Source: Desulfobacteraceae bacterium Eth-SRB1
GTDB taxonomy: Bacteria > Desulfobacterota > Desulfobacteria > Desulfobacterales > ETH-SRB1
Assembly (NCBI GenBank): GCA_004193555.1
Contig: RPGP01000001.1
Location: 856,790-920,789 of the forward strand
Length of the DNA: 64,000 nt
Direction of reading: 5' to 3'
Both the position numbers and the translations under genes were made by a program. Position 1 is the first letter of the stretch; each line of letters begins with the position of its first letter. Below, piece after piece: positions 3,217-58,389 of the stretch. The notes beneath the pieces were generated by a model, which saw only the letters and a program-made list of their open reading frames with translations, was not told where the DNA came from and did no database searches.

Positions 3217-3290
3217 TTCAACATTAGAATTAATGCTTTTATAATTTCTTTGTGTTCTTCGTGGTGAAAAATAAACATAATAAAAAACTC

Positions 3291-3609
3291 AAGTTTCGCA
3301 CCCTTTAATTTAGCCAAAGCGTTAGACGGTAAGGGCTAAAAATAAATTTTAAAGCGAAATATACTGCCTGTGGTTTTTACAACGGCGCCAATCAATAACT
3401 ATAAGATTGATGCCTGACACTTTATTAAATTCAATAAGTTATATCTCCTTTGCGCCGGTCTGCGTGCGGTTACGCACAGGCAGGCCTGATCATAATCTAT
3501 GTTGCACTTAGATGTTGTTTACAAAATATAAGCAAATGATTTCGCTGTAAAAATGTTATTTTCAACCCTTACCGTCTTGATATTGATAGAAATCAAGGGT
3601 GCGAAACTT
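3291..3609. repeat. 319-bp palindrome-ended repeat, copy 1
   Basis: Bounded by perfect 15-bp inverted ends, AAGTTTCGCACCCTT and its complement. A second, nested inverted pair (GACGGTAAGGG and CCCTTACCGTC) lies inside. A second copy of exactly the same length is at 57865-58183, with about ten substitutions by eye and no visible indel. No ORF of useful length is present. The structure is that of a miniature inverted-repeat element or a structured RNA locus. No target duplication is obvious. Confidence 0.85.
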
Positions 3610-3666
3610 GAATAAAAAAGCTCTAATTATGACCGTTTACAGTATAATCCGGAAAGGAGGAGAAAA

Positions 3667-4937: not shown

Positions 4938-5020
4938 GTAACCGTTTATGGTTCAACAGGTTCAGACTTGGTCGCCTTGCGCTACTCATTTCAACACGCT
5001 CTCTAACCGTGAACGGTTAC
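4938..5020. repeat. Inverted-repeat element, GTAACCGTT family (83 bp)
   Basis: Ends are GTAACCGTT and AACGGTTAC. The inner 65 bp carry no ORF. The same ends bound the elements at 12097-12375 and 48758-48854. It begins 8 bp after the stop codon of gap, in the convergent gap/recD2 spacer, and could also work as a bidirectional transcription end. Confidence 0.7.
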
Positions 5021-8165: not shown

Positions 8166-8310
8166 AGATGAACATCGAACATCGAACGTCTAACATCGAA
8201 TGTTGAATAATGATGTCGCTTCGCTCCTCAATTTATTATAAAATTGAATGAGAAAAAAACAGAAGACAGAGGTCGGAACCAACAACCGTGAACTGTAAAC
8301 TGTAAACCGT
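8166..8310. repeat. Spacer repeats between etfB and etfA
   Basis: One arm of the CGAACATCG family (8166-8205, followed by a TGTCGCTTCGCTC tail) and one degenerate arm of the CCGTGAACTGTAAAC type (8286-8310) fill the etfB-etfA spacer. No gene is seen. The insertion has separated two genes that are usually adjacent. Confidence 0.55.
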
Positions 8311-11115: not shown

Positions 11116-12093
11116 ATGAACTTAAAGCATAAGATCCTTGCTATGGTAAATGACGATCTCGAGGATATTGAAACCGCGCTTAAGCAAAATTTAAATCCGT
11201 ATCTTGACATAGTCTCACAGACAGCCGGCCATATATTGTTTTCCGGCGGCAAAAGGTTAAGGCCGCTGATCATGGTTCTTTCTGCAAGGATTTGCGGTTA
11301 TAGAGGGAACTATGATAAAACATTTTCAACTATGTTTGAATATCTTCATGCAGCCACTTTATTGCATGACGATCTTGTGGATGAAGCAAAATTGCGCAGG
11401 GGAAAGCCTGTGGCGCATTCTGTTTGGGGTAATTCCATAGCGGTTCTTGTAGGCGATTTTCTTCTTGCCCGCGCGCTTTCCATCGCAGTTGAAACAGGCA
11501 GGAAAAATGTTATCGGTATTATAGCAGAAGTTACCGAACACATGTCCCAGGGGGAGATACACCAGCTTATAAGAAAGGGGCGGTTAGACCTTGCAGAAGA
11601 AGAGTATATGATGATAATACAAAATAAAACAGCCTTGCTTTTCCAGGGAGCCTGTCGTGTAAGCGCTATTATCTCCGATGCGGCTGAAAAGGAGGAAAAA
11701 GCAATTTCAGATTACGGTTATAATTTAGGGATTGCTTTTCAGATGGCGGATGATCTTCTTGATTACACATCAGACACCGGCTCTCTTGGCAAAGAGGTTG
11801 GGGCCGACCTTAAAGAGGGTAAGCTTACACTGCCGGTTATATATTCTTTAAAAAAGGCCGGCTTAGAAGATCGGGCCAGGATGAAAATGATCATAAAGAA
11901 TAAAGAATTTTCTATTCATGATTTTGAAATATTGATAGCATTGTTAAAAAAGTATGAAGGGCTTAAATATACTGAAAAGCAGGCAGAAAAATATATTGCA
12001 GAGGCAAAGAAAGCCCTTATGGTATTTGAGCCTTCAGAGACAAGAGAAACTCTTTTAAACATTGCAGATTATGTGCTGGCAAGGAAAGTTTAA
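11116..12093 (+). CDS. ispB: Polyprenyl diphosphate synthase (octaprenyl/heptaprenyl type)
   Basis: Trans-isoprenyl diphosphate synthase that builds the polyprenyl side chain of menaquinone or ubiquinone. The two aspartate-rich motifs are present: DDLVDEAKLRRGKP (first) and FQMADDLLDYTSD (second). GGKRLRPLI near the N-terminus is the substrate-binding segment. The length is 325 residues. Chain length cannot be set from the sequence alone; in an anaerobe of this type the product would serve menaquinone, the quinone used by the succinate/fumarate enzyme encoded at 16-20 kb. No strong ribosome-binding site is visible. Confidence 0.9.
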   Translation: MNLKHKILAMVNDDLEDIETALKQNLNPYLDIVSQTAGHILFSGGKRLRPLIMVLSARICGYRGNYDKTFSTMFEYLHAATLLHDDLVDEAKLRRGKPVAHSVWGNSIAVLVGDFLLARALSIAVETGRKNVIGIIAEVTEHMSQGEIHQLIRKGRLDLAEEEYMMIIQNKTALLFQGACRVSAIISDAAEKEEKAISDYGYNLGIAFQMADDLLDYTSDTGSLGKEVGADLKEGKLTLPVIYSLKKAGLEDRARMKMIIKNKEFSIHDFEILIALLKKYEGLKYTEKQAEKYIAEAKKALMVFEPSETRETLLNIADYVLARKV

Positions 12094-12096
12094 ATT

Positions 12097-12375
12097 GTAA
12101 CCGTTAACGGTTTACAGTTATCGGTTTACGGTTGAAAAAAACAACATGTAGAGAAAAAATATGGGATCCTCTTTTAAAGATTTAGACGTTTGGAAAAAAT
12201 CTTGCAGGTTATCAGTACGTCTTTATACATTATTAAGAGATTGCCGTGATTATGGAATGAAAGATCAAATGCTGCGCTCATCTATATCTATTCCGTCAAA
12301 ATCCAAAATGCTTCAATCGTTGCATAGTTCATTGAAAAAACTGTGAACTGTGAACCGACAACCGTAAACGATTAC
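12097..12375 (+). mobile_element. GTAACCGTT-family element carrying a four-helix-bundle gene remnant (279 bp)
   Basis: Left end GTAACCGTTAACGG (12097 on) and right end CCGTAAACGATTAC (to 12375) are inverted phrase arms. Between them lies the gutted four-helix-bundle gene described in the next entry. The miniature at 48758-48854, read on its minus strand, matches this element's left ~43 bp joined directly to its right ~68 bp, including the last 12 codons of the gene. The element starts 3 bp after the ispB stop and ends 8 bp before the ATG of the next gene, leaving no room for a normal ribosome-binding site there. Confidence 0.7.
12161..12346 (+). pseudogene. Internally deleted four-helix-bundle (23S rRNA IVP/S23-type) protein
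   Basis: The first 46 residues (FKDLDVWKKSC, then GMKDQMLRSSISIPS) are the N-terminal half of the four-helix-bundle family first described from intervening sequences of spirochaete 23S rRNA. Family members run to about 115-125 residues and continue with N-I-A-E-G after SIPS. Here SIPS is followed at once by KSKMLQSLHSSLKKL and a stop, which resembles the family's last helix. About half the protein is therefore missing, and a short AAA-rich direct match at the junction suggests slippage. It is in frame and may be translated, but half a bundle is unlikely to fold. Confidence 0.7.
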
Positions 12376-12383
12376 ATATTATT

Positions 12384-13574
12384 ATGAAACAGAGAATACT
12401 AATTTTAATGCTTTTATTAACGGTCTTTTTCTCAGGCGACGTGCTTGCCGAAGAACAACCCTTAACAAAGACTGTTGAGGCCATAGGAACAGGCAGGCTC
12501 TATGCACAGAATATTGCGGGAGCAAAAAACCGGGCTATTTCAGATGGCCTTGTCGCTGCTATGGAAAAGGTTCTCTCGGATTTTTTGCCGGTTGAGTCTT
12601 TAGTGCAGAATTTTCAGCTATTAAACGAAACCTTTTATGAACATACAGATCAATTTGTTCAGAATTACAGGGTGCTGACAGAAGCGATGTCCGGCAATGC
12701 TTACAGGGTCATTGTCCAGGCAACTATTTCTGTTGATCAGGTTCAAACGCAGCTTGCTGCTGCCGGCATTGTGTTGGGGAAAAAGGCTATGCCAAGAATT
12801 ATGTTTTTTATCGCAGAGCAAAACCCCGCCGGCAGTTTAACAAAGTGCTGGTGGAAAGAAGACGCGGATATTGATAAAAACGCTTCAGAAATCGCGATGG
12901 CCAGGGCGATGAGAGATGCCGGACTTTTAATAGTAGATCCCGGCGATATAATTCAGTATATTAAATATGAGGATATAAGGCTTAAGGTCGATCCGGACCA
13001 ACTGGAAGCTATAGATCTGGGGGCACGTTTTCACGCTGATATAGTAATAGTCGGCAAGGCGACAGTAGATATGGCTTCAAATATTATGGGGGCGCAAATA
13101 AAGTCTTTCAAAGGGACTGTGGCTGTTAGTGCATACAGGACAGACACAGGCGAAGAGATTGCCTCAACTACTCAAACAGCCATTGCTGTAAATGCTGATG
13201 CGATTACAGGTGGCAGGGATGCGCTTTCAAGCGCAGGCGCTCTGGCCGGCGACAAGCTTTCCAGTCAAATTATTAATGCATGGCGACCAGAGATTAAAAA
13301 GCTGATTATGGTGGAAATTATAGTCGAGGGAACAGATCATCTTGCAAATTTTGTAGTATTTCGTAATGTATTAACAGATATTCCCGGCGTAAATAATATT
13401 CAGCTCAGGGAGATGAAGGCGGATGAAGCGATAATTGGTGTAAATTTCAGGGGTGGTACAAAAGAGCTTGCAGATGAGCTGATGTTGAAAAATTATGAAT
13501 CTTTTGGCATAAATATATACGAAATATCGCAAAACAGTTTGCATATTGCGCTTGTACCGGATCGAGACCTTTGA
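12384..13574 (+). CDS. Exported protein with FlgT-like N-terminal domain
   Basis: A signal peptide (charged start, hydrophobic ILMLLLTVFFSGDVLA, then AEE) marks export. Residues ~25-130 resemble the FlgT N-terminal domain: EAIGTGRLYAQNIAGAKNRA, then YRVIVQATISVD. The middle segment (MPRIMFFIAEQN onward) resembles families that sense or scaffold at the cell envelope. No flagellar gene is in the window, so a flagellar role is not supported. The gene follows directly on the four-helix-bundle element and overlaps pgsA by 4 bp (TTGA), so the two are probably translated in a coupled way. The last codons include GAGACC and then TTTGA, identical to the end sequence of the GAGACC repeat family. Confidence 0.65.
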   Translation: MKQRILILMLLLTVFFSGDVLAEEQPLTKTVEAIGTGRLYAQNIAGAKNRAISDGLVAAMEKVLSDFLPVESLVQNFQLLNETFYEHTDQFVQNYRVLTEAMSGNAYRVIVQATISVDQVQTQLAAAGIVLGKKAMPRIMFFIAEQNPAGSLTKCWWKEDADIDKNASEIAMARAMRDAGLLIVDPGDIIQYIKYEDIRLKVDPDQLEAIDLGARFHADIVIVGKATVDMASNIMGAQIKSFKGTVAVSAYRTDTGEEIASTTQTAIAVNADAITGGRDALSSAGALAGDKLSSQIINAWRPEIKKLIMVEIIVEGTDHLANFVVFRNVLTDIPGVNNIQLREMKADEAIIGVNFRGGTKELADELMLKNYESFGINIYEISQNSLHIALVPDRDL

Positions 13575-14164: not shown

Positions 14165-14351
14165 AAATTATGTAACCGTTTCCGGTTTGCAGTTCACGGT
14201 TGGTTGAAACATATCAGCCAGAGGCTTAAACCTAAGTTGAGCGATTTTTGGGGAAGAAATTTAAGAATTAAGATTAATATCAAACATGGCTTTTTAATGC
14301 GCTTTTCCCTAACAGCCTTCAGCCTGTCCATGTAGTTACAATCCGTTTTTC

Positions 14352-48757: not shown

Positions 48758-48854
48758 GTAACCGTTCACGGTTCACAATTTTTTCAATGAATTATGCAAC
48801 AATTGAAGCATTTTTTCAACCGTGAACCGATAACTGTAAACCGTAAACGGTTAC
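48758..48854 (-). mobile_element. Miniature GTAACCGTT-family element (97 bp)
   Basis: Perfect ends GTAACCGTT and AACGGTTAC. On the minus strand it equals the left end of the 12097-12375 element joined to its right end. It retains ATG plus codons for M-L-Q-L-L-H-N-S-L-K-K-L and a TGA, the counterpart of the C-terminus of the four-helix-bundle gene there. It lies between rsmB and the TPR gene. Confidence 0.8.
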
Positions 48855-57846: not shown

Positions 57847-57864
57847 AATTAAAATAATTAACTT

Positions 57865-58183
57865 AAGTTTCGCACCCTTTAATTTAGCCAAAGCGTTAGA
57901 CGGTAAGGGCTAAAAATAAATTTTAAAACGAAATATACTGCCTGTGTTTTTTACAACGGCGCCAATCAATAAATATAAGATTGATGCCTGGCGCTTTATT
58001 AAATTCAATAAGTTATATCTCCTTTGCGCCTCTCTGCGTGCGGTTACGCACAGGCAGGCCTGATCATAATCTATGTTGCGCTTAGATGTTGTTTACAAAA
58101 TATAAGCAAATGATTTCGCTGTAAAAATGTTATTTTCAACCCTTACCGTCTTGATATTGATAGAAATCAAGGGCGCGAAACTT
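57865..58183. repeat. 319-bp palindrome-ended repeat, copy 2
   Basis: Same length and orientation as 3291-3609. The inverted ends have one mismatch here (AAGTTTCGCACCCTT against AAGGGCGCGAAACTT). Nested inner arms GACGGTAAGGG/CCCTTACCGTC are kept. It makes up much of the 57727-58609 spacer. Confidence 0.85.
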
Positions 58184-58389
58184 AAAAAATTAATCTAATT
58201 ATAATAAAAAGACATGTCAACAGCAAGTTGGAGACTAAATTTGAGCATACAAGATATACAGATGGAACATATCCCTAAAAATTTTTAGCCATTCAACTGA
58301 TTGTTTTGTAACAGTCTGATTTTATTCACCAACAAAAAGCGAGAAACAGAATGGGCATAATAACTATTCAATATCGCTTTAGATTACCT

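Follow-up and report, generated by a model that had tools for sequence, protein, structure and literature searches.

Copies of a small heptamer-armed element in the window

The window analysed in the present study, a 64,000-nucleotide stretch of contig C1 in the 3.34-Mb draft genome of Desulfobacteraceae bacterium Eth-SRB1, contains several copies of a small repeat element (GTAACC family), all located between protein genes and not in a 23S rRNA gene (Table 1). The copy at 12097–12375 (279 bp) has a right end reading AACGATTAC and a 61-residue ORF, in which helices 1 and 2 of a four-helix-bundle (4HB) protein are fused to the C-terminal end. This copy aligns over its whole length with an intact 444-bp element of another genus (locus L040, genome G004), from which it differs by the loss of bases 205–369 (165 bp, in frame). 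The original prediction, made from the letters of the window alone, had proposed inverted ends and an internally deleted 4HB gene here, and both the alignment and the PF05635/TIGR02436 matches confirm that reading; since the arms match only imperfectly, an automated repeat search of 12050–12420 gave no inverted repeat of at least 12 nt.

The 97-bp copy at 48758–48854 had been taken for a deeper deletion of the full element that keeps the last 12 residues and the stop of the 4HB protein. The alignment with L040 bears this out; bases 41–373 and 14 bp of the right arm are missing, the remainder still encodes MLQLLHNSLKKL followed by the stop, and the same C-terminal codons are present in the intact L040 gene. 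Hairpin stems were predicted by RNA folding for three miniatures, the fold of 48758–48854 having an energy of −39.4 kcal/mol (z −7.2). The proposed third copy, at 4938–5020, can be retained as far as its ends are concerned, its middle part being unrelated. With at most one mismatch allowed, the window has 17 occurrences of GTAACCGTT, compared with an expectation of 8.4, and none of 100 shuffles reached 17.

Table 1. Coordinates of the repeat elements and their parts in the window
Positions	Strand	Feature	Evidence
4938–5020		83-bp miniature	terminal 16 bp common at each end, middle unrelated
8169–8205	+	heptamer array, GAACATC family	array match C1:864958
9320–9546		gene-less element, second heptamer family GAACATC/GAACGTC	same arms flank 4HB genes L006, L008
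10938–11057		gene-less element, GAACATC family	sequence reading
12097–12375	+	deleted copy of the 444-bp 4HB element, GTAACC family	93.5% identity to L040, single 165-bp deletion
12097–12133	+	left arm, five GTT-type heptamer units	direct reading; arm test score 28
12161–12346	+	remnant 4HB ORF, 61 aa and stop	PF05635 1.8e-9; TIGR02436 3.7e-8
12339–12375	+	right arm, heptamer units inverted	direct reading; arm test
14172–14210	+	solo left end, GTAACC family	exact GTAACCGTT; own-genome end-pattern match C1:870961
19929–20089		gene-less inverted element, GTGCCTAAA family	arms as in 4HB genes L004, L005
23180–23324		gene-less inverted element, GTGCCTAAA family	sequence reading
48758–48854	−	97-bp gene-less miniature, last 12 codons and stop kept	93.8% identity to L040 over 97 aligned bp

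The GAACATC family yields 306 array matches in the genome (control 0), and ends of this type are found on only two of the genome's 16 4HB genes, L006 and L008. Other repeats are present as well. A further, palindromic family (TTTCGCACCCTTTAATTTAGCC...) occupies 3289–3611 and 57847–58200 of the window and occurs once inside GTAACC ends (L158); a third palindromic family, CCTAAGTTGAGCGATTTTTGG-like, lies at L184 and L246 in the same spacers that are occupied by 4HB elements elsewhere, in other genomes; and at L147 and L152 other sequences are nested in GTAACC-family copies, beside or within 4HB remnants.

The intact element and its distribution

In L040, an element of 444 bp, GTAACCGTT-type ends enclose an intact 116-aa 4HB gene; at L037 (genome G003), the 4HB gene is intact and the left end is rearranged. 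The original prediction had anticipated an intact gene of about 120 residues between the same ends in a full-length copy, and intact genes so placed were found at these two loci, in two other genera. The 4HB gene (PF05635/TIGR02436) is the sole gene of the 444-bp element, and no recognised transposase, reverse transcriptase or Y1 domain lies inside it. The flank of L037 was found only in its own genome among the genomes searched, and the phage records searched contained no match.

TIGR02436 matches number 16 in the Eth-SRB1 genome, and at least one is present in 48 of 58 genomes (this genome and 57 relatives). The GTAACC end pattern, counted as single end matches and not as elements, has 45 matches in the genome (reversed control 0), 5–62 in nine relatives of the same family, one in G017 and none in five genomes that belong to the order but to different families. 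With the reversed control pattern, a single match in G007 was the only one in any genome searched. The end pattern was used to fetch 57 loci, some of them representing the two ends of one element. A partner end was located within 1480 bp in 44 of these, the nearest partner never being more than 444 bp away, and 4HB coding DNA was retained in 14 of the 44 paired-end loci and absent in 30. A 79-bp form, present at six loci, looks like a deletion between the TTGAAAAAAC repeats bracketing the gene. The search for a transposase covered 1.5 kb beside each end. At the 13 loci with an unpaired end, Pfam searches with the longest neighbouring frame of at least 90 aa (12 loci had one) revealed no transposase, the frames being assigned to S5, ATP sulfurylase, CobW, EF-G, ClpX-like AAA and other host families, or remaining unmatched.

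Target-site duplication and empty sites

Eight bases before the left end were compared with eight after the right end in 34 paired GTAACC copies with distinct flanks (L176 was counted twice, with two possible right ends). The mean number of matches was 4.94, against 2.89 for shuffled pairs (sd 0.24, z 8.7), and the signal appeared at a length of eight alone, with z of at most 2.4 at lengths 2–7 and 9–12. The 8-bp target-site duplication (TSD) is perfect in 7 of the 34 copies and matches at seven or eight positions in 14, perfect duplications being found both where 4HB coding DNA is retained and where it has been lost. The intact L040 element (L139 in this set) matches at 7/8, short gene-less copies of 79–183 bp (e.g., L126, L131, L144) at seven or eight, and the window copies at 4938, 12097 and 48758 at 6/8, 4/8 and 1/8, respectively. 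The second family, GAACATC (22 and 18 copies), gave no TSD signal, and a generic scan of 99 diverse elements found no 8-bp signal (1 vs. 0.8 expected); judging from these alignments, the 8-bp TSD is established for one family only, GTAACC.

Comparison of orthologous spacers, which the original prediction had recommended, revealed element-free sites. The element of the 12.1-kb spacer is absent in all 15 relatives with an orthologue, and in 11 of these an ATG comes within about 5 nt after the stop; the congener G015 (L250) lacks the L040 element in the corresponding spacer, the flanks being 87–90% alike. The 48.8-kb locus has three different internal deletions of the GTAACC-family element in G000, G007 and G010. 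G003 and G005 had been considered as empty sites at this locus; both keep a CGGTTAC end, a deletion scar, and were therefore regarded as losses and not counted as empty.

Cyanobacterial plasmids offer occupied and empty sites at a resolution close to one base. Plasmid L259 (Trichormus), with an intact 4HB element, is about 98% identical to the empty L265 and L266; GTAATAAA stands on the left of the insertion and the target GTAATTAA on the right, and the empty site reads GTAATTAA. L260 is occupied in comparison with L273, L274, L275 and L279, with TTCTAAAT and TTCTAGTT flanking the insertion. At L259 and L260, the first five duplication bases alone are identical, so that a 5-bp duplication also fits there and is not distinguishable from one of 8 bp. 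A further occupied/empty pair is L258 and L267, and no clean TSD was seen in the occupied/empty pairs for L251, L253, L258, L263 and L264. Two Nostoc plasmids, L270 and L251, with flanks 96–97% alike, differ at the same site, where a 4HB gene in one corresponds to a heptamer-rich stretch without the gene in the other.

Inverted arms around 4HB genes in general

To detect arms, the upstream 300 bases of each 4HB gene were aligned with the reverse complement of its downstream 300 bases, with a threshold score of 27 or more. Arms were found at 36 of the 44 loci tested in Eth-SRB1 and relatives (L031, at a contig end, was left out of the 45), at 68 of 80 named loci, which are the best of at least 582 confirmed and hence not a random sample, and at 9 of 14 plasmid loci. 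The controls passed in 3/43 window ORFs, 3/62 other ORFs of the named loci and 5/880 dinucleotide shuffles, and the difference between 4HB loci and control ORFs is highly significant (Fisher 3e-13 and 1e-23); two of the three passing window ORFs sit between gene-less GAACATC arrays. An earlier control with mismatched pairs, in which about 5% of 1980 pairs scored at least 27 and about 1% at least 42, was contaminated because related loci share repeat families, and it was replaced by shuffles, window ORFs and matched ORFs.

Four of the eight failures among the 44 loci are halves of two 4HB genes split by a GIY-YIG element; retested on their outer flanks, one gene passes (75) and the other fails (21). 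Most of the 12 failing named loci have short arms, judged by eye and not counted. The failing plasmid loci are L256, L259, L260, L261 and L264, with L259, L260 and L264 falling below the threshold because their arms are short.

The repeat period is seven in 25 of the 36 loci with arms from the genome and relatives and in 61 of the 68 named ones; the median arm length is 4.6 units (87 period-7 elements), and the left arm is G-rich on the sense strand in 97/104. In-register pairing of the arms is moderate (19 of 97 elements at 0.05 or below), and the boundaries of most families are approximate, not to the base. According to the record titles, from which the taxonomic groups were taken, arms are present in Firmicutes (12/14), Bacteroidota (13/17), Acidobacteriota (9/9), Planctomycetota (5/6), alpha- (5/5), beta- (5/5), gamma- (4/4) and other Proteobacteria (2/3), at one of two archaeal loci and in further groups; the cyanobacterial plasmid heptamers include AGGGAAC and TAGGGTG. 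Sequence comparison thus shows a common build, with repeats particular to each family, for most of the TIGR02436/PF05635 genes examined, in many phyla.

The identity of the 4HB proteins and the similarity of the heptamers co-vary (99 elements, Mantel r 0.21, reached in 0/500 permutations), and the covariation persists at saturated dS and across phyla; like proteins accompany like heptamers in L090 (Nitrospirae) and L019 and L022 (the window's order), and in L125 (a betaproteobacterium) and L104 (a Chitinophaga record). Covariation by itself is no proof of binding, because the arms and the gene are carried on one stretch of DNA. The six closest 4HB pairs, with dN/dS of 0.03–0.23, are under purifying selection. 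The upstream gene is co-directional at 89/101 4HB loci compared with 62/85 control pairs (one-sided p 0.007), and the downstream gene at 83/105, which is not significant; selection, or a need for read-through transcription, may account for the preferred upstream co-orientation.

The 4HB protein and its genomic settings

Relatives of the 4HB protein form a pentamer, according to the available text of PMC4990558, and the solved relatives 2GSC and 2RLD contain five chains each. Residues Q27, S34, N38, E41 and E64 are invariant in 33 diverse 4HB sequences, which fits a functional site, either catalytic or binding; no catalytic motif was recognised in the protein. A comparison of the 4HB model with Avd of diversity-generating retroelements (DGRs; PDB code 4DWL) gave a TM score of 0.82 by query length, an E-value of 0.057 and 12% identity, and Avd, on this comparison, is a probable homologue with the same fold.

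Two different 4HB genes are interrupted by a small element at approximately the same conserved codons, S-N of SNIAEG (L015 1216–1653 with L010, G000:C40:202967–203570; L011/L012, G000:C37:8762–9427). The interrupting element has CCCTGTTAAAT/ATTTAACAGGG-type ends, its ORF in L015 matches GIY-YIG (PF01541, 4e-15), and it looks like a homing element targeting 4HB genes.

Genes annotated as 23S_rRNA_IVP have been reported in cas loci, as stated in the portion consulted of PMC3936711. 4HB genes with repeat arms lie inside CRISPR-Cas loci at L258 (PCC 7003 plasmid), L255 and L257; the cas10-4HB-cmr3 arrangement of PCC 7003 (L258) has an arm score of 29, and the insertion is missing from PCC 7002. 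Its absence there suggests that at least some of the 23S_rRNA_IVP genes in cas loci are insertions, and such genes may be of transposon origin rather than cas genes.

Discussion

As far as alignments can show, the GTAACC element has entered new intergenic sites, generated 8-bp duplications and decayed by internal deletion to gene-less miniatures. It is probably a small DNA transposable element with heptamer arms, whose 4HB protein would bind the arrays and unite the ends. The complete form of 444 bp consists of about five degenerate heptamers on the left, the 116-aa 4HB gene and the same heptamers inverted on the right. A pentameric 4HB ring would bind the arrays of the family to which it belongs, with each subunit contacting a single heptamer; such one-to-one reading is suggested by the number of about five heptamers per arm, the fixed strand and the way heptamers and proteins co-vary. 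By bringing the ends together, the protein would promote the transposition of its own copy and of gene-less copies, and the DNA would be cut by the 4HB protein itself or by a recruited nuclease.

The idea that the copies are MITEs mobilised by a conventional cut-and-paste transposase, which is encoded at another locus and leaves 8-bp duplications, with the 4HB protein as a passenger or regulator, draws on the fact that 8-bp TSDs suit classical staggered-cut transposases, that the 4HB protein has no known nuclease motif and that 30 of the 44 paired-end loci are without 4HB coding DNA. MITEs are likewise short and gene-less, with inverted ends and a TSD; unlike in MITEs, the full-length parent found here encodes only a 4HB protein, and a term search of the text of a MITE review (PMC10969869) found no mention of 'four-helix', 's23' or 'heptamer'. 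This origin seems unlikely, as no transposase was found within 1.5 kb beside each end, partner ends lie at most 444 bp away in 44 of 57 loci and the frames beside unpaired ends are host genes or unmatched; moreover, elements of this build are found in many phyla, with different ends that are each tied to their own 4HB subfamily, and neither such tracking of the ends nor continued purifying selection would be expected for a passenger.

Movement through RNA, with the 4HB protein working together with a reverse transcriptase in the manner of Avd, would agree with the resemblance of the model to 4DWL and with the co-directional upstream genes. It is nevertheless improbable, since the 444-bp element, with its 4HB gene alone, contains no reverse transcriptase, and no RVT_1 match was found in the relatives G001, G005 and G014, with 11, 9 and 13 4HB matches, respectively. 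DGRs, whose Avd has the same fold (PMC10053308, available part), differ from the element in their reverse transcriptase and template repeat, neither of which was seen in it. A still smaller probability is assigned to a REPIN-like nature of the elements, with a Y1 (RAYT) transposase mobilising them via a single-stranded DNA intermediate, despite Y1_Tnp matches in 54 of the 58 genomes searched (14 in Eth-SRB1). Y1 chemistry would not be expected to leave the 8-bp duplication that marks the present element, REPs do not consist of heptamer arrays, and G024, G027 and G038 have 4HB matches and no Y1 match; the relatives are draft genomes, so that absence of RVT_1 or Y1 from them is not final. REPINs do resemble the elements described here in being dispersed hairpin-forming miniatures whose ends track one protein family (PMC3116915, in the part available), the difference being that the RAYT protein is a Y1 transposase. 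Slippage, which together with regulation is weighed for heptamers in the accessible text of PMC4679880 and PMC4692102, could have produced the repeats, with the 4HB genes as useful host genes lying beside them by chance, as the location of some of these genes in cas loci might imply. This, too, is very improbable; it is already contradicted for the GTAACC family by TSDs and empty sites, inverted arms of fixed strand polarity flank most 4HB genes and few control ORFs, and PCC 7002 lacks the copy that PCC 7003 has in its cas locus.

Intervening sequences (IVSs) in rRNA genes have been known since about 1990, and those of the 23S rRNA in Leptospira and Coxiella contain an ORF of the same protein family (S23p/IVP) between inverted repeats forming a stem. 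They differ from the elements considered here, which are intergenic and accompanied by gene-less miniatures and, in the window's family, make 8-bp TSDs; none of the 80 named 4HB loci had an rRNA match (Rfam). In the Coxiella IVS, first described as 444 nt, the ends form a 28-bp stem and the S23p start codon is preceded by tandem heptamers GACAGAT; the idea of IVSs as mobile is taken up in the same source (PMC4990558, consulted in part). Given these similar heptamers, the IVS looks, by analogy, like one member of a class of 4HB transposable elements, and a 23S rRNA IVS would be such an element that landed in an rRNA gene.

Cyanobacterial STRR sequences are degenerate tandem heptamers in spacers. 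Likewise, degenerate tandem heptamers occur in spacers of Xanthomonas (GGGAATC), Nostoc (GGGGA(C/T)T) and Beggiatoaceae (TAACTGA), and those of Xanthomonas are often found as inverted pairs, 70 and 75 cases being given in the part consulted of PMC4692102. The accessible text of the heptamer papers states no link to 4HB proteins ('four helix' does not occur in that of PMC4692102, nor 's23' in that of PMC4679880), and among the literature matches listed, with subscription journals and preprints outside their scope, the available text links heptamers or inverted repeats to the 4HB family for the Coxiella IVS alone. Perhaps the STRR, Xanthomonas and Beggiatoaceae heptamers also belong to 4HB elements.

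A bolder version of the proposed mechanism is possible, though doubtful: the 4HB protein itself may be the transposase, a pentamer ring counting about five heptamers per end, and represent a new catalytic class with a site formed by Q27-(R30)-S34-N38-E41 in helix 2 and E64. Bacterial heptamer repeats would then stem from such elements, and rRNA intervening sequences as well as DGR Avd would descend from them. If the 4HB protein suffices for movement, the element class would be new outright, and if it is the transposase, these elements would rank with the smallest known autonomous transposons. The class would also offer a route by which the Avd protein reached retroelements, and elements with seven-letter end repeats may explain the scattered heptamer repeats that have been puzzling for decades. 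If the proposed explanation is true, the PF05635 family, orphan heptamer repeats and rRNA intervening sequences would be parts of one widespread class of very small transposable element.
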